This document shows, one piece after another, positions 17,466-27,411 of a stretch of 64,000 nt of DNA. Both the position numbers and the translations under genes were made by a program. The stretch lies in assembly GCA_029265355.1 (NCBI GenBank), contig JAJUJL010000001.1, forward strand, positions 62,001 through 126,000, written 5' to 3'. Below the pieces are notes generated by a model. It did not search any database. It saw only the letters and a program-made list of their open reading frames with translations, and was not told the origin of the DNA. Each line of letters starts with the position of its first letter. Positions within the stretch are counted from its first letter, which is position 1. This DNA comes from Chloroflexota bacterium. Its GTDB lineage: Bacteria; Chloroflexota; Anaerolineae; Anaerolineales; UBA4823.

Positions 17466-18746
17466 CTAGACCAGCAGCAGCAGCGGCTGTTCGATGTAGC
17501 GCGCCAGCGCCTGCAAGAATCGCGCCGCTTCAGCGCCGTCGCTGACCCGGTGGTCTACAGAGATCGTCGCATTCATGCGCATACCGGGCACAATTTGTCC
17601 GTCCTTGACCACCGGTATTTCCCGGGCGGAACCAACCGCCAGTATGGCTGCTTCGGGCGGATTGATGATGGCTATAAAGGACTCGACATCGAACATCCCC
17701 AGGTTGCTCACCGAGAAAGTCGACCCTTCGATCTCGTCTGGGCGAACCTTTCCATCTCGCGCCCGGGCTGCCATGCTGCGCACTTCCGCCGAGATTTGGC
17801 GCACAGACTTTCGATCGGTATCGCGGCACACCACCGTGAGCAAGCCGCCCTCGACGGCAACCGCAACGCCCACGTTGACCGCGCCATGGCGAATGATCTG
17901 GTCGCCTTTCAAGGTCGCGTTCAGGTTGGGAAACTCACGCAGCGCCAGGGCCACCGCCTTGAGCAGGTAATCGTTCACCGAGGTCTTCTCACCCTCGGGC
18001 AGCAGGGCATTGACCTCCTGGCGCAAGGCCATCACAGGCGCCATATCATACTGGTGCGTGACATAAAAATGGGGAGTCTGCTGCTTGGATTCAGTCATAC
18101 GCCGGCCAATGGCAGCCCGCAAGCGATTGACCTGTACGACCTGGTCCTCAGCGACCGGCCCAGGGGCAGCGGTCACCAGGGGCGGCGCAGCAGGGGCGGC
18201 TGGCTTCGCCGGAGCGGGTGCAGCGGCCTCGGCAACTGCGGCTGGCTGGTAGGTTTCGACATCTTTTTTGGTGATCCTGCCCCCCGGACCGCTTCCCTTG
18301 ATACGGCGCAAATCGAAGCCGCGCTCCTGCGCCATGCGCCGCGCCAGGGGTGAGGCTTTCACACCGCCTGGAAGCCCAATCTCAGGCTCAGCCTCGACCA
18401 CCGCGACAGTTTCCACCGCCGGGGCGTGCTCTGCAACCGACTCATCTAAAGCGGGTTTGGTTTCGCCGACTGAGTCGCCGGGCATGCTGCTCAAGTCGAC
18501 CTTTTCACCCGGCGCGCCCACCACCGCGATCGGATCATTCACGGGGACGATATCGCCTTCTTTCACCAGGTGGCGCAAAACAACGCCGTCATAAGCCGAC
18601 TCGACTTCGACGGTGGCTTTATCGGTTTCAATTTCGGCCAATACGCTTCCTTTTGCAACCGCCTCGCCTTCGGCAATCACCCAGCGCACCAGCGTACCCT
18701 CTGCCATGTCGAAGCCGAGCTTCGGCATGGTGACGATTTCTGCCAT
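17466..18746 (-). CDS. pdhC: Dihydrolipoamide acyltransferase (E2) of a pyruvate/2-oxoacid dehydrogenase complex
   Basis: 426-aa E2 with one lipoyl domain (residues 1-76; lipoylated Lys43 in ETDKATVE), a Pro/Ala-rich linker, a peripheral subunit-binding domain (about 129-166, SPLARRMA to GRITKKDV), a second Ala/Pro linker and the catalytic domain with SVDHRVSDG (His399, Asp403). It passes the acyl group from E1 to CoA. The start overlaps the E1-beta stop as TAATG, behind GGAGG. Pyruvate is the likeliest substrate, but branched-chain or acetoin use cannot be excluded by eye. No E3 gene is in the window. Confidence 0.93.
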   Translation of the reverse strand: MAEIVTMPKLGFDMAEGTLVRWVIAEGEAVAKGSVLAEIETDKATVEVESAYDGVVLRHLVKEGDIVPVNDPIAVVGAPGEKVDLSSMPGDSVGETKPALDESVAEHAPAVETVAVVEAEPEIGLPGGVKASPLARRMAQERGFDLRRIKGSGPGGRITKKDVETYQPAAVAEAAAPAPAKPAAPAAPPLVTAAPGPVAEDQVVQVNRLRAAIGRRMTESKQQTPHFYVTHQYDMAPVMALRQEVNALLPEGEKTSVNDYLLKAVALALREFPNLNATLKGDQIIRHGAVNVGVAVAVEGGLLTVVCRDTDRKSVRQISAEVRSMAARARDGKVRPDEIEGSTFSVSNLGMFDVESFIAIINPPEAAILAVGSAREIPVVKDGQIVPGMRMNATISVDHRVSDGAEAARFLQALARYIEQPLLLLV

Positions 18747-19717
18747 TAGAGCACCTCCTTGACTGCCTTCACAATGTCCTCGATCTGAGGCAGCGCCATT
18801 TGTTCCAGGGTGCGGTTATAAGGCAGTGGAACTTCTTTTTGCGCCACCCGCTGTATCGGAGCATCGACATAGTCGAAGGCTTCCTCGTAGATGCGCGCCG
18901 CCACTTCCGAGCCCACCCCATAGGAGCGCCAACCCTCTTCCACGATCACGGCGCGGTTGGTCTTCTTGAACGATTCCAGCACCGGTCCCATATCCAACGG
19001 GCGCAGGCTGCGCAGGTCAACGATTTCTGCCTCGATGCCTTCTTTTGCCAGTTGATCGGCCGCCTTGGTGGACAGCTCCAGCATCTTGCTGTAGGTGATG
19101 ATGGTGACATCCTTGCCTGGGCGCTGCACCTTGGATTTACCCAACGGGATCACGTAATCGCCCTCTGGAACTTCACCGCGCACCTGGTAGAGGGTAGCAT
19201 GCTCAATGAACAAGACCGGATCGTTGGAGCGGATCGCAGCCTTCAGCAGCCCCTTGGCGTCTTCTGGTGTGCCCGGAGCGACCACCTTCAGGCCCGGAAA
19301 ATGTGCAAACACGGCATCCGGCGTCTGCGAGTGGGTAGCGCCCAACTGGCGACCGCCGCCGCCAACCGCGCGGATCACCATCGGCAGCACAAACTGCCCT
19401 CCAAACATATAGTGCAGCTTGGCAGCTTCGTTGACAATATGATCCATGGCCGAGAAAGCGAAATTGATGGTCATCAATTCAGCCACCGGGCGAGTGCCGG
19501 TCAAGGCCGCACCGATTGCGCCGCCGATGATCGCTGCCTCAGCAATCGGGGTATCTCGAACGCGCTCTGGACCGAAGTGGTCATAGAACCCTTTGGTCAC
19601 CGCGTAGGTTCCACCCCAAACTCCGACTTCTTCCCCCAGGATAAATACACTTGGATCGCGCTCCATTTCCTCCCATAAGGCCTGGGAAATGGCTTCGCGC
19701 ATGGTAATTCGGGCCAT
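18746..19717 (-). CDS. pdhB: 2-oxoacid (pyruvate) dehydrogenase E1 beta subunit
   Basis: 323-aa beta subunit of the thiamine-diphosphate E1 heterotetramer. Typical segments are FILGEEVGVWGGTY, PIAEAAIIGGAIGAAL, and the C-terminal VIVEEGWRSYGVG. TGAGGA lies before the ATG. It partners the E1-alpha encoded 75 bases upstream and is translationally coupled to E2. Confidence 0.94.
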   Translation of the reverse strand: MARITMREAISQALWEEMERDPSVFILGEEVGVWGGTYAVTKGFYDHFGPERVRDTPIAEAAIIGGAIGAALTGTRPVAELMTINFAFSAMDHIVNEAAKLHYMFGGQFVLPMVIRAVGGGGRQLGATHSQTPDAVFAHFPGLKVVAPGTPEDAKGLLKAAIRSNDPVLFIEHATLYQVRGEVPEGDYVIPLGKSKVQRPGKDVTIITYSKMLELSTKAADQLAKEGIEAEIVDLRSLRPLDMGPVLESFKKTNRAVIVEEGWRSYGVGSEVAARIYEEAFDYVDAPIQRVAQKEVPLPYNRTLEQMALPQIEDIVKAVKEVL

Positions 19718-19792
19718 AATTTTTCCTCAGTTGATAATCACTTTGATCTGAATCGCATGTTTTATCCAGCCGGCAGTGAGACTGCGATGCCA

Positions 19793-20755
19793 TCAATCAG
19801 CATCGACATAAATGTGCTGGAACAACATCTCCGCTGGCGGTTCGGGGCTGCTTTCGGCAAACTGCACTGCATCCAACGTGGTTTCATTTGCCCGTTGGTC
19901 AACCTCGTTCAGCTCGCTCTCGGTTGCGATGGCGTGATCAACCAGGTAGCGCCGGTAGATGCCGATCGGGTCATTCTCCTGCCATTGACGCACTTCCTCT
20001 GCCTTGCGGTAGCGTTCTGGGTCGCCCATGGAATGCCCACGGAAACGGTAGGTGACGATTTCCAGAAAATACGGCCCTTTGCCGCTGCGCACATAAGCGA
20101 TGGCTTCCTCAGAAGCCTTGCGCACCGCCAACACATCCATACCATCGACCCTGCTGCTGGGGATCGAGTAGCCTTCGGCTTTTTGGCGGATCTCGGAGAC
20201 CGCAGAAGCGCGTTCAACAGCAGTTCCCATACCGTACTGGTTGTTTTCGCACACCCACAACACCGGTAAATTCCACACCTTGGAGAGGTTGAGCGCCTCG
20301 TGGAAATAACCAATGTTGGTTGCGCCATCGCCAAACATACAGATGGTCACTCCGTCGTTCTTTTGGTATTGATCACCCAATGCCAGTCCTGCCGCGATGG
20401 GCAGGTGCGCGCCGACAATGGCATGGCCACCCCAAAAGTTTTTATTCACGTCCGCCATGTGCATCGAACCGCCCTTGCCCTTGCTGGAACCGGTCACCTT
20501 ACCTAGCAGCTCAGCAACCACTTCGCGGGCGCTCAAGCCGCAGTTGATCGCCACACCGTGGTCCCGGTAGGCGGTGATCACGCGATCTTGCGGTTGGCGC
20601 GCAGAGATCAGCCCAGTGCTGACCGCTTCCTGGCCGATGTAAAGATGCAAGAAACCGCCAATTTTACCCTGCTGGTAAAGCTGAGCTGCTTGCTCTTCAA
20701 CCAGGCGGATCAGCACCATCTGATAATACAATTCGAGGTGCTCCTCTTTTTTCAT
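19793..20755 (-). CDS. pdhA: 2-oxoacid (pyruvate) dehydrogenase E1 alpha subunit
   Basis: 320-aa subunit that binds thiamine diphosphate through GDGATNIGYFHEALN and ends the motif with ENNQYGMGT; the HSMGDPERYR phosphorylation-loop region is also present. The reading frame is open to 20953, but the family starts at the EEHLELYYQMVLIR helix, and the extension would run through the structured leader, so ATG 20755 (with AAGGTTAGC upstream) is chosen. First gene of the E1-alpha/E1-beta/E2 operon. Confidence 0.94.
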   Translation of the reverse strand: MKKEEHLELYYQMVLIRLVEEQAAQLYQQGKIGGFLHLYIGQEAVSTGLISARQPQDRVITAYRDHGVAINCGLSAREVVAELLGKVTGSSKGKGGSMHMADVNKNFWGGHAIVGAHLPIAAGLALGDQYQKNDGVTICMFGDGATNIGYFHEALNLSKVWNLPVLWVCENNQYGMGTAVERASAVSEIRQKAEGYSIPSSRVDGMDVLAVRKASEEAIAYVRSGKGPYFLEIVTYRFRGHSMGDPERYRKAEEVRQWQENDPIGIYRRYLVDHAIATESELNEVDQRANETTLDAVQFAESSPEPPAEMLFQHIYVDAD

Positions 20756-20797
20756 TTTGCTAACCTTTCGTTTCTCAATAATTTCCCGCGTAATAAC

Positions 20798-20879
20798 GCC
20801 GGCTAAAAGCCGGCATTTTTTATAGTCACGCGCTTGCAGAGAGCAGTGACATCCCCTGATGGATGCTAAGGTGCTCTGC
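20798..20879 (-). ncRNA. Structured 5' leader of the pdh operon (two hairpins)
   Basis: Between a likely transcription start near 20905 and the pdhA start lie two hairpins. The first is nested: GCAGAGCA pairs with TGCTCTCTGC (20872-20879 with 20836-20845, a 2-base bulge), enclosing CATCC/GGATG (20861-20865 with 20850-20854). The second is GCCGGC-TTTTA-GCCGGC (20798-20814). On the minus strand no T-run follows the second hairpin; the T-run is on its other side. I do not recognise a known riboswitch. Confidence 0.4.
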
Positions 20880-20911
20880 CCCACAATTAGCTTGGCAAAA
20901 TCTCGACCAAA

Positions 20912-20917
20912 ATTATA
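20912..20917 (-). promoter_or_regulatory. Extended -10 promoter element of the pdh operon
   Basis: Minus-strand TGGTATAAT: TATAAT at 20912-20917 with the upstream TG of an extended -10. No good -35 is seen. It gives a leader of about 150 bases before pdhA. Confidence 0.5.
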
Positions 20918-20987
20918 CCAGATATCCAGATTTGATCGTCTGAAATTCCCCACCCAGCGCTGAGGCAGGATGCGGAAAGCGACTGCT

Positions 20988-21392
20988 TTAACCTGTGGTT
21001 CCCCACCCGATCTCTTCAGCGGCGCGGAAAATATCAGTGACTGAGATCAATCCGATCAGGTTGCCATCCGAGTCTGCCACAGGCATGTGATGAATGCCGC
21101 GTTTTGCCATCTCGATTGAGCACGTTTTCAAATCCCATTCAGGGTCGGCGGTCGCCACTGGGGCCGTCATGATTTCACCGGTGGTGATTTCAGCCGGGTT
21201 GCGCTCGGCGGCGATAATTTTGTCGCGAATATCGGTCGTCGTGATAATCCCAAAGGTATTTTGCCCCGGACGGTTGACCACCAGGCTATGAATATTGCGC
21301 CGCCGCATCAGTGTCAGTGCATAAGACACGCTGCTGTCCGCGTCCACCACCACCACAGGGCTGCTCATCCAATCGCGCACTTTTTTCGGCAT
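20988..21392 (-). CDS. CBS-domain pair protein
   Basis: 134-aa stand-alone Bateman module: two CBS domains (about residues 8-60 and 73-128) with the recurring pattern HSLVV..FGIITTTDIRDK and HHMPVAD..LIGLISVTDIF. Such proteins sense AMP, ATP or SAM-type ligands and often act on a partner. GGAGGTGGTT precedes the ATG. It lies 68 bases behind the sigma-like membrane protein gene and upstream of the pdh promoter, so it may belong with either neighbour. Confidence 0.88.
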   Translation of the reverse strand: MPKKVRDWMSSPVVVVDADSSVSYALTLMRRRNIHSLVVNRPGQNTFGIITTTDIRDKIIAAERNPAEITTGEIMTAPVATADPEWDLKTCSIEMAKRGIHHMPVADSDGNLIGLISVTDIFRAAEEIGWGTTG

Positions 21393-21460: not shown

Positions 21461-24034
21461 TTATTGCTCATCGCCCACCGGCGGCAGCACGCAACCATCC
21501 AGGCCGGTCATCAGCGGGGGGTATTTGATTCCCCAGGCATAGGTCGGTGAATCGGGCGGGATGGCGCGCATTTCCCGGTCATACACCCCTTTATAGGTGA
21601 TCTCCCCATCGCTCAGGCGGACAATGAAAAACGAGTCATTCGCTCCCAGCAAGCCGAGCTCTGCGCCATCTGGGCTCCAAACAAAATTGGATGCCCCCTG
21701 GGAAAGCGCGATAACTTTCCGGTTCTCGGCGGTGCGTGTGTTGTGGAGGTAAAGTCCACAATCCGTTCGCTGCGCAGGGCAAGCCCAGAAGGCAATTTGC
21801 TCGCCATCTGGCGAGATGGCAAACATGGAAGAAATCTGGCTGGGTTCGGGCATCGGGCGCCGGAGTTCGCTGGGCTGTGACAATCGCAGGTAATGCGCGC
21901 CGTAACTCGCTGCTGGGGCGTCTTCCAGATGGGTGAGCGCCTGGCTGAAGACCACCAGGTCGCCATCCGCCGAGCGCTGGCACCACAGATCCCAGGGCAT
22001 GCCCAGGTGGAGGGTGGTGAGAAGGGTATCCTCAAGATAAAGCAGGGTGCCAAAGGAAGCAGAGCTCTGCAGCGCAGCGTGCGGCGCAGGAAAGCGAAAG
22101 CTGAGTCGGTTGTTTTTCGACGCCGCCTGGGCTAAAGGCGAGGCAGCCAACAGCGAGGATGAATTTTCTGCCAGCCCTGTTCCCCAGGCCGGGAAGATAG
22201 CGCCATCCAGCTCTGGCATACCACGGTGATCGCGGGCGAAGTTGCCTCGCCAGGGCAGCGCCGTGTCGAACAATTCCTGCGGAAAATCCACATCCACGGC
22301 CATATTCATCACGATAGCATCATTGGGGAGAGGCACATCCAGCGCTTCGGCAACCGTCTCGCTATTGAGACGCCGCTGCCGCAGCAGCAATCCGGTTTGC
22401 TGGTCAATCCACAAGAATGATCGCCGGCCACCCAGGTCGCTTGTTTGAGAGACGACCCAGGATGAGCGCCCGGCAATCTCACCCTCGCCCAGCAGTTCAT
22501 AGCGCATGCCGCGCAAATGCTCCGTCTCGCTGAACAGCAACGAAAGGCCAAACAGAAAGGTAATATCGATCGGCTCTTCAAAAGCTCGCACGGAAACTCG
22601 CTCGAACCAGCGATTGCCCTTGCCGGGGCGGGCGACATACACGCCGCCGCCGTTGTTGAGCATAATCTCCGTTGGCCAGCCGCCAGCAGGACCCGTAATC
22701 AGCAAGTACTGGCTGCGGCTGAACCAGAGCTGCATACGCGAGAGTTTTATCGGCGCCTGAGGTTGCTCAGATGATCCAGTGACCAATAACACATCCATCC
22801 AGATCGTGTTCGCCGGTTGATGGATCAGTTGCAGCATGTGTCGCACCTGGTCCGAGGTGACCGGCGGCGCCAGCGTCGCCTGGGATGGGAGTGGGGTGAC
22901 CGGCGTGGCTTTTGGGGGTTGTGAGCGCAGGACGCCCGGAATGATCAGACGCTGCCACCTTGCCAGGCGATCTTCTGGCGCGATCCGATTCAGGCTGCGC
23001 AGCTCTTCAACGCTGACCTCAAACTGCGCCGCCACGTCCTCCAACGTTTCACCCAGCGTGGCCAGGTAAAAGACCCCGCTGGGAGTCGGCGTGGGGGTTG
23101 GTGCCTGGGTGGGCGAAGGGGATGGCTGGTGGGTGCGCGTGGGCATGGGCTTCAGCGCACGCTCTTCCAAGATCTCCGTTGGCTGGCTGGGAAATGCAGG
23201 AAGCTGAGATGGTTCGGGGATCTGCAGCGGGCCAGATCCCAGGAAAAATCTGCTCCCGCCCCAAACCAACAGGCCAATCAATACCAGGCCGATGAGCAGC
23301 ACCCCAACCTCTTTGAGGCTGGCGTATGCCTGGCGAAACAATTTTGCCCGCCGGGCATGCATCTCCAACTTGCCCAAGAGAAAGGGTTCATCGTATTCAG
23401 GGGGTGGATCGCTGGCCCATAGCTGATGGATCACCTGAGTGGTGCGCGAGTGTGTCTTTTCGAAGCTCTCATCGTTGCTGCTCTGCTGAATGCGTTCCAG
23501 GCCGCGGGTAACTGCCGCTTGAACAGCCGGCGCGGGAAGATTGAGCAATTGCGCAGCCCGCTCGATGCCCCAACCGGGCAGGCTCGCAAGAAGAATAGCC
23601 CGCCGTTCGGGAGCCAGCAGCGCCTGGAGACGTTCACAGATCAAACGATCTTCCTCAATAAATTGCGACCAGGCTGGCGCGCCAGTGAACTGCCCCGGCA
23701 TACGCAGCGCAATCTCTAAATTTTTCCAGCGTCGCTCACTCTCTTCCATCTGCTGGAGCTGGTTCCAGGCATGACGGTACAGCCAGGCATCGACGCCCAT
23801 CTCACTCCGGTAGGTGTGCAAATAGCTGGCGAGTCGCAGAAATATGCGCTGCACAGCTAAAAGGGCAGCCTCGCGGCTGCCCAAAATGACCAGCGATAGC
23901 TGGTACACCGGCTCATAATAGGCTTTTGCCAGGTTCTGCATCAGGTAGTTCAGGCTCACCTGTCCGGACTGCAGCATCCATTCCAGGTCTGGTGATAATT
24001 CTGGGAGGGGATCAGGATCTTGTAAATAACGCAT
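21461..24034 (-). CDS. Single-pass membrane protein: sigma-70-like N-domain, LysM, sensor-like C-domain (paralogue 2)
   Basis: 857 aa. Residues 25-110 look like sigma-70 region 2 and 125-185 like region 4 (a helix-turn-helix around GWGIERAAQLLNLPAPAVQAA). A membrane helix lies at about 243-260, then a Pro/Thr/Ser linker (271-319), a LysM-like module (322-367, LGETLEDVAAQFEVSVEELRSLN in part) and a large extracytoplasmic part. The latter has a LolA/RseB-like feel (FSRSQYLLITGPAGG) and WD40/TolB-like SPDG repeats near the end. Its C-terminus ends LDGC-LPPV like its neighbour. GGAG precedes the ATG. I infer a one-chain ECF sigma/sensor; the sigma part may be degenerate. Not matched to a named family. 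Confidence 0.7.
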   Translation of the reverse strand: MRYLQDPDPLPELSPDLEWMLQSGQVSLNYLMQNLAKAYYEPVYQLSLVILGSREAALLAVQRIFLRLASYLHTYRSEMGVDAWLYRHAWNQLQQMEESERRWKNLEIALRMPGQFTGAPAWSQFIEEDRLICERLQALLAPERRAILLASLPGWGIERAAQLLNLPAPAVQAAVTRGLERIQQSSNDESFEKTHSRTTQVIHQLWASDPPPEYDEPFLLGKLEMHARRAKLFRQAYASLKEVGVLLIGLVLIGLLVWGGSRFFLGSGPLQIPEPSQLPAFPSQPTEILEERALKPMPTRTHQPSPSPTQAPTPTPTPSGVFYLATLGETLEDVAAQFEVSVEELRSLNRIAPEDRLARWQRLIIPGVLRSQPPKATPVTPLPSQATLAPPVTSDQVRHMLQLIHQPANTIWMDVLLVTGSSEQPQAPIKLSRMQLWFSRSQYLLITGPAGGWPTEIMLNNGGGVYVARPGKGNRWFERVSVRAFEEPIDITFLFGLSLLFSETEHLRGMRYELLGEGEIAGRSSWVVSQTSDLGGRRSFLWIDQQTGLLLRQRRLNSETVAEALDVPLPNDAIVMNMAVDVDFPQELFDTALPWRGNFARDHRGMPELDGAIFPAWGTGLAENSSSLLAASPLAQAASKNNRLSFRFPAPHAALQSSASFGTLLYLEDTLLTTLHLGMPWDLWCQRSADGDLVVFSQALTHLEDAPAASYGAHYLRLSQPSELRRPMPEPSQISSMFAISPDGEQIAFWACPAQRTDCGLYLHNTRTAENRKVIALSQGASNFVWSPDGAELGLLGANDSFFIVRLSDGEITYKGVYDREMRAIPPDSPTYAWGIKYPPLMTGLDGCVLPPVGDEQ

Positions 24035-24092
24035 GGATTTGCTCCACCAATAAAAAGCGCCCTATCGAATTCCCCCCAATCTTATCACTATT

Positions 24093-26339
24093 TCAGGGTA
24101 GAACTGGCGGCAACCGGCAGCTTTCCAGGCCGCCTGCCTCCACAACCGGTTCTGACAACCAGGCGAACTCTTCGGGTCTCAGCGCTTCTCTGTCTTCCTG
24201 CTGCAGGTTCTCTGTGTAGCGGATCACAAAGTTGGTCAGGTCGAGCACCACCTGCTCATTGTAAAACCAACGAATAAAACCGAGGGCTGTGCCATCCGGA
24301 CTCCACCGAAAAGATGTGGCGTAATCCGAATACCACAATACAGGCGCTCCACGCCTTGCCAGGTCGGCAATATAAATACCACACTGTGGTTTGTCCTCCC
24401 AACAGCCCCAAAATGCCAGGTAATTCCCATCGGGGGAGAAAGCAAAGTCTCTACCCACTTCTCGGTGTTCAGGTAGCAATGCCAGGGGTTGATACACCCC
24501 ATCCACAGGCTGCGTCAGGTCCAGCCAACGCAACCTGCCAGAAGGATACGGCGCTGCCTGCGGCATTTCCAACAGAGCCAATTTGCTGCCATCCGGCGAG
24601 CGCTGGCAGAGCAAATTCCAGGGGTTGGCAAGCACAGCCTCGCCAAGGAAATTTTTTCCGGCAAAGATCTCGACTGGAACGAATCTCACATCCCTGAAAC
24701 TGACACCCTCAGAGATCATCTCACCCTGGCTGCGCCATTGAAAGTTGAGCTCGCTTTTCGAAAAATCGATCTCTTGCTGTGTGGTGATACGTTCCAGCGC
24801 CTGGCGCGTGGGTGAAAGCTCGACTGCCGGCAGCAGTTCTACCTCATCCGGGAGCAGCGGCAGTCCGCTGTAATCGCGCACAAAATTGGTCGGCAGCATG
24901 CCCGACTCAAAGATCGATAACATGGGCTTCGGTTCGTAAGCGACCTGGGTAAAAACCCCTTCACGAAAGACAAGGCCAGTCTCAGGATCATATTCCCGCA
25001 GCCCCAGGATCACGCCTTTGACGCGATCCAGCGCGAGGCGGTATGCCATACCATCGTCGATGACCGATACCCATACCACCGGCTGCCCCGCGATCAGCCC
25101 AATTTGGAGCGGGGAGATCTCATCAGGACCGTTGATCCAGGTCTTTGGCTGGAGCAACCGCGCCAGGATGGAGAAATCGCTCAACGGCTGTCCTCCCAAC
25201 TGGTGGACAGTCCCCTCTTCCAGGTTCCGCAGATAGCGGACGCCACCCTCCTGAAAGAATACACGCGTGACACGCTTACCGGCTGGACCGCTCAAGATCA
25301 CGATGCGATCCGGTTGGTTGAACCAGATCTGCTCGCGCTGAATTTCGGGCGGTCCGACATACCCAACCGGCCCGTAGTCGTAGATCAAGGCTTCAGCCCA
25401 CAGGTTCTGCCAGGTATCCTGGCTGCCCATCAAGCGAGCGCGCACCTGGGCATCTGAAGATGCGAGGCCTAATGGCACGGGGGTCTTCACCGGCCTGGGC
25501 GTGGGTGTGATGTACACCAGGCGAGTGACGACAACCGTCTGGGCGATGAAGGGATTCGGGGTTTGCCGTGTAGCGTAACGCCCGCTGATCCAGATGATGC
25601 CGGCTGCGAGCGCAATCATCCCCACCACGGCTGCCAATTGTTGGAGCAAGCGCATCGCATCCTGCTGGCGCTGCTGCTGCTCGAGGCGATTCAGCACGGT
25701 GCTCACCAGTCGCGTCTGCTCATCGGGCGTGAGCTCGATCTTCGGCCACAGCTCCGCCAACGCTTTACCAATTCGCCCACCGCCGCCGCCTTCTATTTCC
25801 ACAGCGACATCCATCACCCTGTGCGTGCGCATCAAACGATGACGGATAGGTTCCAAGCTGGTCTGAAGCAGCTCTGCCAGGTCCTCGTCTGGCAGCTCAA
25901 AAAGCTCTGAAAGCAGCAAGATTTCCAGGTCGCTGGAGGTCAGGGTTCTTAATGCTCGTCGAAACTTCATCCGCTCAGGATCCACCCGGATTGGAGGAGT
26001 GCGGTTCGTTTGCCAGACGGTCTGCCTCCGAGAAGGGCGCCTGAGCTGGCGGCGGCAGTTCTGCAGTGTCAGATTCGCCAACCAGGCCTGGGCGCTGGCA
26101 TGCTGGCGGCATTCGTGTCTCTGTGTTGCCGCCTGGAAGATGGTATCCAAAGCCGCCTGCTCCGCAAGCTCAGGATCCCCTAACAAAATCAGGCAGCGAT
26201 GATGAAGTGTGACGTAAAATTCTTTGACCAGGAAGTCGACGATCATCTCTGGCGTGGATTGGGAGCTGCGCAGTACCCATTCCAGGTCTGATTCGAATTC
26301 GTCCTCTGGATCGAACAAGAGAACATCCTCTCGGTCCAT
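24093..26339 (-). CDS. Single-pass membrane protein: sigma-70-like N-domain and sensor-like C-domain (paralogue 1)
   Basis: 748 aa from the start that aligns with its neighbour (DLEWVLRSSQ against DLEWMLQSGQ). Region 2-like residues 20-100 and region 4-like 125-175, an acidic/glycine stretch, a basic helix, then a membrane helix at about 234-252. The outside part repeats blocks of the next gene: QIWFNQPDRIVILSGPAG, NPWNLLCQRSPDG, FAFSPDGNYLAFWGC, FRWSPDGTALGF and a final SCRLPPV. It has no LysM. The frame is open to a GTG at 26423 without a ribosome-binding site there; 26339 has only a weak one. Followed after 58 bases by the paralogue, probably one operon. Confidence 0.68.
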   Translation of the reverse strand: MDREDVLLFDPEDEFESDLEWVLRSSQSTPEMIVDFLVKEFYVTLHHRCLILLGDPELAEQAALDTIFQAATQRHECRQHASAQAWLANLTLQNCRRQLRRPSRRQTVWQTNRTPPIRVDPERMKFRRALRTLTSSDLEILLLSELFELPDEDLAELLQTSLEPIRHRLMRTHRVMDVAVEIEGGGGGRIGKALAELWPKIELTPDEQTRLVSTVLNRLEQQQRQQDAMRLLQQLAAVVGMIALAAGIIWISGRYATRQTPNPFIAQTVVVTRLVYITPTPRPVKTPVPLGLASSDAQVRARLMGSQDTWQNLWAEALIYDYGPVGYVGPPEIQREQIWFNQPDRIVILSGPAGKRVTRVFFQEGGVRYLRNLEEGTVHQLGGQPLSDFSILARLLQPKTWINGPDEISPLQIGLIAGQPVVWVSVIDDGMAYRLALDRVKGVILGLREYDPETGLVFREGVFTQVAYEPKPMLSIFESGMLPTNFVRDYSGLPLLPDEVELLPAVELSPTRQALERITTQQEIDFSKSELNFQWRSQGEMISEGVSFRDVRFVPVEIFAGKNFLGEAVLANPWNLLCQRSPDGSKLALLEMPQAAPYPSGRLRWLDLTQPVDGVYQPLALLPEHREVGRDFAFSPDGNYLAFWGCWEDKPQCGIYIADLARRGAPVLWYSDYATSFRWSPDGTALGFIRWFYNEQVVLDLTNFVIRYTENLQQEDREALRPEEFAWLSEPVVEAGGLESCRLPPVLP

Positions 26340-26506
26340 AATATCGATTCTACCCAAATAATCTTCCACCTTCACCACAAAACCGGTTCGGATTTTCCCT
26401 TCTGCCCTCCTATGCAAACTCACCCGATCCAGGCATTATAACGAAACTTATCGCCTCAAAGCACGTAGATCTGATTGTGCCTGTTTTCACCAGGCGCTGA
26501 CCGCAC

Positions 26507-26541: not shown

Positions 26542-27411
26542 ATGGACGTGCGCTACATCCTTTTTTCGTTGAATGGTTTGCTGATGCTGGCTGTGCCGGT
26601 TGGGCTGGGCTTGTACCTGACGCGTCGCTTTCAGATGGGCTGGCGCTTGTGGTGGATCGGCGCGGCGACCTTTGTGCTCTCACAGGTGGGGCACATCCCA
26701 TTCAATGCCATGCTCACCCAGCTCTTCCAGCGCGGCCTGTTGCCCACGCCAGCGCCAGAATGGGGATTGATATTCAACGCAGTCGTGCTGGGCCTGAGCG
26801 CAGGTCTGTGGGAAGAAACCGCGCGCTATGCCGCCTACCGCTGGTGGGCGCGCGAGGCTCGCACCTGGAAGAGAGGTTTACTGCTCGGCGCAGGTCATGG
26901 CGGCATCGAAGCCATCCTGCTGGGCGTGCTGGTCTTGGTCAATTTCGTCATCCTGGCCGCGCTGCGCACAAGCAATTTGTCCGGCCTGGTACCCTCCGAA
27001 CAGCTCGAACTGGCTAACCAGCAGATCCAGGCATACTGGTCAACGCCCCTGCCTCTGACACTGCTGGGAGCTGTGGAACGCGTTTTCGCGATCATTTTAC
27101 ATCTCACCCTCTCACTGCTGGTGCTGCAGGTATTCATTCGCCGGCGCTTCTACTGGCTGGCAGCCTCCATCGCGTGGCACGCCCTGGCCAATGCAGTGGC
27201 AGTCTACACCGCGGCAACTTATGGCCCGCTCGCTGCCGAGGGTGCCCTGGCAGTCAATGCGTTGCTGTGCCTGGTTGTGATTGCCAAACTCTACACGCCG
27301 GAGCCTGTCCAGCTCGGCCAGGAGAGTGGGCCTGAACCGGAGCTGCTGGATGTCGCCTCGCTCGAACCAACCGACACGCCAGAAAGCCTGGATCGTTCAC
27401 GCTACCAATAG
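26542..27411 (+). CDS. YhfC-family intramembrane protease (putative glutamic-type)
   Basis: 289-aa protein with about seven to eight membrane helices. It carries the paired motifs of the YhfC group, related to CPBP/PrsW proteases: EETARYAAYRWW, then GAGHGGIEAI, and a later WHALANA. The Glu and His residues in these helices form the presumed active site. It is divergent from the two sigma-like membrane proteins, with 202 bases between. PrsW-type relatives cleave anti-sigma factors, so a regulatory partner next door is plausible but unproven. C-terminal 35 residues are hydrophilic. An ABC exporter follows after 9 bases. Confidence 0.78.
   Translation: MDVRYILFSLNGLLMLAVPVGLGLYLTRRFQMGWRLWWIGAATFVLSQVGHIPFNAMLTQLFQRGLLPTPAPEWGLIFNAVVLGLSAGLWEETARYAAYRWWAREARTWKRGLLLGAGHGGIEAILLGVLVLVNFVILAALRTSNLSGLVPSEQLELANQQIQAYWSTPLPLTLLGAVERVFAIILHLTLSLLVLQVFIRRRFYWLAASIAWHALANAVAVYTAATYGPLAAEGALAVNALLCLVVIAKLYTPEPVQLGQESGPEPELLDVASLEPTDTPESLDRSRYQ

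Follow-up and report, generated by a model that had tools for sequence, protein, structure and literature searches.

Tandem single-chain membrane receptors of an Anaerolineales bacterium carry a degenerate ECF sigma-like domain

Membrane-spanning ECF sigma factors made of a single chain are on record as ECF48, ECF52, ECF53 and IutY (PMC5826349, PMC8999054). In the ECF52 protein SCO4117, a zinc finger, a transmembrane (TM) helix and a carbohydrate-binding domain stand in one chain, and release by proteolysis has been suggested for ECF52 and demonstrated for IutY (PMC5826349, PMC8999054). Another use of the sigma fold is known from PhyR, which is soluble, mimics a sigma factor and binds an anti-sigma factor (PMC4598750). 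Anti-sigma factors of class I place helix 4 over sigma regions 2.1/2.2 and touch sigma4 with helix 1 (PMC7406223). An earlier note on the locus analyzed here had presented its combination of sigma factor and sensor in one chain as not known to be described, which is too strong in view of ECF48/52/53 and IutY (PMC5826349, PMC8999054). Within this lineage, we found no membrane-anchored or pseudo-sigma protein in the literature searched, which was largely open-access.

The window, which is the whole 64,000-nucleotide stretch of DNA that was analyzed, contains two adjacent open reading frames on the minus strand, P0001 and P0002, as the earlier note had claimed. The spacing between them is about 60 bases. 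Both encode about 235 cytoplasmic residues followed by one predicted TM helix and a large ectodomain, in agreement with the single membrane helix proposed earlier. LysM occurs in one of the two, again as proposed: it exceeds the Pfam cut-off in P0001 and is absent from P0002. The features are as follows.

24096..26339, minus strand: P0002, fused receptor, 748 aa, without LysM
26025..26294, minus strand: P0002 sigma2-like domain, residues 16-105 (AF2 and VIA ranges; Pfam weak)
25788..25997, minus strand: P0002 sigma4-like domain, residues 115-184 (Pfam, AF2, VIA)
25635..25775, minus strand: P0002 juxtamembrane helices, residues 189-235 (W-P motif in common with neighbouring anti-sigma factors)
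25578..25649, minus strand: P0002 single TM helix, residues 231-254 (TM prediction)
24897..25457, minus strand: P0002 RseB/MucB-like (LolA fold) domain, residues 295-481 (AlphaFold, Foldseek, VIA)
24153..24803, minus strand: P0002 beta-propeller, residues 513-729 (AlphaFold, Foldseek, VIA)
21464..24034, minus strand: P0001, second fused receptor, 857 aa, with LysM
23735..23998, minus strand: P0001 sigma2-like domain, residues 13-100 (Pfam, NCBIfam, alignment)
23465..23653, minus strand: P0001 sigma4-like domain, residues 128-190 (Sigma70_r4_2, E 1.7e-5)
23237..23329, minus strand: P0001 TM segment, residues 236-266 (TM prediction)
22937..23053, minus strand: P0001 LysM, residues 328-366 (Pfam, over cut-off)
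22259..22888, minus strand: P0001 RseB/MucB-like domain, residues 383-592 (Pfam MucB_RseB, E 0.004; aligns with the P0002 ectodomain)
21464..22237, minus strand: P0001 beta-propeller region (Pfam, alignment)
26542..27411, plus strand: YhfC-family intramembrane metalloprotease (PF10086, E 1.3e-37), divergent from the fused pair
20988..21392, minus strand: CBS-domain protein, adjoining the fused pair downstream
17466..20953, minus strand: 2-oxo-acid dehydrogenase E1alpha-E1beta-E2 genes

An in-frame GTG upstream, at 26423, is a possible alternative start of P0002. A promoter and terminator scan of the operon gave no signal clearly above that of shuffled sequences. About 11 loci have fused genes near an E1alpha-E1beta-E2 dehydrogenase operon or upstream of it, and the YhfC gene cluster recurs at three related loci (L027, L054 and L071).

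Searched singly, P0001 and P0002 give weak Pfam matches to sigma regions 2 and 4, under the curated cut-offs, and several ECF NCBIfam models match at E-values of 1e-6 to 1e-9. A profile built from the fused N-termini only retrieves soluble ECF sigma factors in 38/38 genomes of the GTDB family, usually with E-values between 1e-16 and 1e-36, and a whole-family profile retrieves soluble ECFs class-wide, so that the sigma homology is real and not due to chance. The AlphaFold model of P0002 residues 1-257, computed from 25 fused sequences and zero soluble ECFs, reached a pLDDT of 88.2 and a pTM of 0.83; Foldseek places ECF sigma factors, sigma complexes and PhyR highest, with no E-value below 0.001, and the fold matches include SigW and AlgU. 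By VIA, SigW-RsiW aligned over 153 residues at Z 13.0, a value by itself not decisive for helical proteins, with which the sequence profiles agree independently. RpoE-NepR and CnrH-CnrY follow within a few rows, the highest-ranking VIA matches being closed, anti-sigma-bound forms. A sigma2 plus sigma4 ECF fold is thus found by predicted structure in P0002, and by Pfam and NCBIfam in P0001. The region 2 and region 4 layout read into both proteins by the earlier note is therefore borne out by profile search and by the predicted SigW-like fold, and the comparison with sigma structures that it had suggested places ECF sigma factors at the top. Across the family the match is uneven: Pfam region 2 is recognized in 27/27 soluble proteins vs 6/25 fused ones, and region 4 in 27/27 vs 9/25. 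Region 4 is missing altogether from L051, L061 and L070, which represent three related genomes of one genus.

On the other side of the membrane, the AlphaFold model of the P0002 ectodomain (pLDDT 85.5, pTM 0.84) has as its best Foldseek match MucB in complex with the periplasmic part of MucA (E 1.9e-8); LolA and RseB are among the matches too. VIA aligned RseB to model residues 11-196 (Z 15.2) and WD-type propellers to model residues 229-445 (Z 10-11), and Pfam MucB_RseB matches at E 0.004 in P0001, 0.007 in L064 and 0.01 in L046. The related ectodomain blocks noticed earlier are real: in a 25-member alignment, QxW, CxRSxDG and a Cys at the C-terminus show no variation or are conserved to 90% or more, and PD40 propeller repeats account for the “SPDG” pattern. 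LysM is optional (9/25 members). Two further sequences depart from this layout. L053:7594-9636 (copy 1, genome G031) has a deleted RseB-like half and retains LysM and propeller, and L134:8268-8858 (G026) is a C-terminal propeller piece adjoining E1 genes, partly N-masked and hence either a remnant or an effect of masking.

For the juxtamembrane and TM part of the fused proteins, matches were obtained to zinc-finger anti-sigma factors whose genes, in the same bacteria, immediately follow soluble ECF genes (L081, 8e-15; L082, 1.6e-14; L076, 1.2e-18 and extending through the ectodomain; E-values for an 11-protein set). Several of these anti-sigma factors share an R-W-P motif with fused proteins. 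An HX3CX2C zinc finger between sigma4 and the TM helix is retained in the source-genome paralogue (L011/L077), in L046 and in L180, and is absent from P0001, P0002 and most other fused members. The source genome also encodes a split version (L076, on contig C35), consisting of an ECF and a zinc finger-TM-RseB-like-propeller protein. In the tree, a branch separates the fused proteins from the soluble ECFs (SH-aLRT 98), although long branches weaken this tree. Together, the anti-sigma matches, the retained zinc fingers, the split versions and the tree branch support the conclusion that the fused receptors arose from an ECF sigma gene and a membrane anti-sigma gene, by one or several fusions. The stages found across relatives, namely split pair, fusion with zinc finger, fusion without it, loss of region 4 and swap of the ectodomain, outline a route that can be tested. 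The proposal that a single chain crossing the membrane unites sigma and sensor stands, each reading frame encoding a sigma fold, one TM helix and an ectodomain.

A search of Anaerolineae genomes for this architecture, suggested earlier, found the RseB-like/propeller type in 17/38 genomes of the GTDB family to which the source genome belongs (Anaerolineales). Named relatives are Anaerolineales MAGs such as RBG_16_57_11, UTCFX2 and DeMMO6_43. No full-length member was seen outside that family among 396 class and 301 phylum genomes, with 2-3 candidates scored per genome. P0002 alone as query retrieved no relatives from genome contigs, the whole-family alignment is too diverse for pattern search, and the L180 N-terminus gave no match in 298 genomes, in a search without a positive control. 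Long reading frames with ECF matches elsewhere (L068, L069 and L181-L184) do not look like members of the fused family. The source genome encodes three fused proteins, P0001, P0002 and a paralogue elsewhere (L011/L077). The pair in the window, which the earlier note had read as a duplicated sensor, is not the product of a recent tandem duplication, since P0001 and P0002 belong to different old subclades in the tree; their ectodomains are about 27% identical.

Several relatives have layouts of their own. L071:5934-7772 (G003; same locus as L164) joins the same pseudo-sigma N-terminus and TM helix to a C39-peptidase-like/TPR ectodomain, also upstream of an E1-E2 operon. L180:1190-5779 (G014) encodes a single chain of 1530 aa with a degenerate ECF-like domain, intact HX3CX2C zinc finger, RWP, TM helix, propeller and LysM, and resembles an intermediate stage or an independent fusion. 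At L054:2939-10409 (G006), a partly masked soluble ECF gene, a zinc-finger anti-sigma gene with propeller and two consecutive fused receptor genes lie in one orientation. In a sister family (L064, L065, L066), RseB-like and propeller domains form predicted lipoproteins without a sigma domain, and the L064 and L065 genes immediately follow a soluble ECF gene.

Holoenzyme formation requires the DAED motif to contact the beta' clamp (PMC8103513). We compared such positions between 29 fused proteins (25 for region 4) and 29 soluble ECFs, the latter mostly from the same family and otherwise from the same order or class. The mean charge of the tetrad is -2.69 in soluble vs +0.34 in fused proteins; a charge of -2 is reached by 27/29 soluble proteins and 0/29 fused ones, and the last acidic residue (D) is present in 29/29 vs 3/29. 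In place of the tetrad, P0002 has LAEQ and P0001 has AALL. The region 2.2 Gln (29/29 soluble vs 8/29 fused) and the acid (E) after it (29/29 vs 12/29) are lost from most fused proteins. In the columns that, from established knowledge of ECF structures, we take to be promoter contacts, the region 2.4 Asn/His of the -10 contact falls from 29/29 to 2/29, and the region 4 Ser and Arg of the -35 contact from 28/29 each to 6/25 and 7/25. Sigma2 retains its structural Trp (29/29 soluble vs 26/29 fused) and many buried hydrophobic residues. Since the residues for core RNA polymerase, -10 and -35 contacts are lost, the N-terminus appears to be a pseudo-sigma domain, not a working sigma factor; with the selection and the newly conserved positions described below also in view, we conclude that the sigma fold was kept for another use. 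Partial motifs persist in single members, P0001 retaining Q and N with the region 4 S/R lost, P0002 retaining the region 4 R with N and S lost, and L061 having AQE; such members may have residual sigma activity.

These losses bear directly on the earlier proposal of a sigma factor freed by proteolysis, in which signal-triggered cleavage, for example by the YhfC-family protease, would let the released domain direct RNA polymerase. The order sigma-(anti-sigma)-TM-ectodomain is indeed that of ECF48/52/53 (PMC8999054, PMC5826349), an ECF fold is predicted, and the YhfC gene adjoins the pair here, its cluster recurring in the three related loci, which makes this protein a candidate processing enzyme and a proteolytic step possible. 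However, DAED, the 2.2 Gln/Glu, Asn/His and Ser/Arg are lost in nearly all fused proteins and intact in soluble ECFs of the same bacteria, and one genus lacks region 4. An EcfP-like phospho-switch is unlikely, since Ser/Thr never occur at the final DAED residue and only three times in the rest of the motif. We therefore regard an active membrane-anchored sigma factor as unlikely; loss of contact residues in homologues, which the earlier note itself had named as evidence against its proposal, is seen in nearly all members.

If the domain does not act as a sigma factor, it could be a mere cytoplasmic anchor or relic of a protein with a purely extracytoplasmic function, such as a lipid or lipoprotein carrier or a cell-wall scaffold. 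The RseB/LolA fold with propeller and LysM would suit such a role, the sister-family lipoproteins have the same ectodomain without the sigma domain, and between L059 and L060 the N-terminus is 50% and the ectodomain 75% identical. Selection argues against it: in four pairs, N-terminal dN/dS is 0.10-0.24, a rough estimate as dS is near or above 1, and saturated, in all of them, and these values are nearly as low as those of the ectodomain, which they resemble or exceed up to about twofold. Moreover, the N-terminal motif L-x-P-D-L-E-W-M-L-Q-S, like a juxtamembrane W, is conserved mainly in fused proteins, and the pairing of the same N-terminus with a different, C39/TPR-like ectodomain in L071 indicates a module in its own right. 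An inert anchor is thus improbable.

We favor, with a probability of roughly 0.6, the reading that these proteins are single-chain receptors derived from a sigma/anti-sigma fusion, with a pseudo-sigma output domain that has lost the polymerase and promoter residues and signals through a partner. Their architecture, origin, fold, residue loss and selection follow from the computational results above. For ligand, switch and partner, we infer a chain of events in which the ectodomain would sense an envelope ligand, perhaps a hydrophobic or lipidated molecule, or wall glycan in the LysM form. Its state would pass through the TM helix to the juxtamembrane helix derived from an anti-sigma factor; in the AlphaFold model of P0002, a helix that runs on into the TM segment occupies the place in the chain that corresponds to the anti-sigma helices described above. 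A shift of this helix would alter the exposure of the pseudo-sigma surface, which could then bind another protein, the most plausible candidate being an anti-sigma factor that belongs to a soluble ECF. By analogy with PhyR, sigma mimicry is probably the output mode. More tentatively, the receptor might act as a transmembrane sigma mimic, a ligand outside causing the pseudo-sigma domain to capture an anti-sigma factor and so free a soluble ECF. The converse is also conceivable: the pseudo-sigma domain could plug the protein's own anti-sigma helix until a signal arrives, whereupon a soluble ECF would be inhibited in trans. The juxtamembrane helix is anti-sigma derived, helix 4 of class I factors binds sigma2 (PMC7406223), and closed, anti-sigma-bound folds top the VIA ranking, but most members have lost the zinc-finger motif and most loci have no linked cognate soluble ECF, which makes inhibition in trans very unlikely.

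If the transmembrane mimic is true, partner switching would operate straight across the membrane and would have emerged from the decay of a fused sigma/anti-sigma/RseB pathway. Sigma factor, anti-sigma factor and RseB-type sensor are here contained in one protein, whose sigma fold is under selection after the loss of polymerase contacts. Confirmation would mean that sigma mimicry is open to transmembrane receptors and that genome annotation miscounts such proteins as sigma factors.

Compared with known systems, the AlgU-MucA-MucB and sigmaE-RseA-RseB pathways share with the fused family an ECF sigma, a membrane anti-sigma part and a LolA-fold RseB/MucB sensor. The family differs in having one chain, a degenerate sigma and an added propeller or LysM; the LolA-like N-terminal fold is found here with MucB/RseB as top match (Z 15.2), but RseB/MucB is a separate periplasmic protein, whereas its counterpart in P0001 and P0002 is a domain of a membrane protein. 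PhyR of Alphaproteobacteria resembles the family in having sigma2/sigma4-like regions that do not act as a sigma factor, with a closed fold (VIA Z 9.4), and some fused members have PhyR Pfam matches. PhyR, however, resides in the cytoplasm, where a phosphorylated receiver domain gates it, while the fused proteins are membrane bound with an outside sensor, no receiver domain is found in them, and their binding of an anti-sigma factor is presumed. IutY (ECF243, Pseudomonas putida) is likewise an ECF sigma fused with a membrane anti-sigma, but one that is active, proteolytically released and devoted to siderophore (aerobactin) signalling. ECF57 has propeller-type repeats (WD40) in a C-terminal extension; as reviewed, no RseB-like domain is described for it and its sigma is regarded as functional (PMC8999054). 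Closest are ECF48/52/53 of Actinobacteria, which also combine ECF sigma, anti-sigma part, TM helix and extracytoplasmic domain in one chain. These are regarded as active sigma factors and have a zinc finger, whereas the present family has mostly lost both the zinc finger and the polymerase and promoter contacts, has an RseB-like plus propeller ectodomain and was seen only in one Anaerolineales family. Relative to the single-chain membrane ECFs, what is new is the loss of sigma function, in a layout like that of ECF48/52/53 with a possible new output mode.
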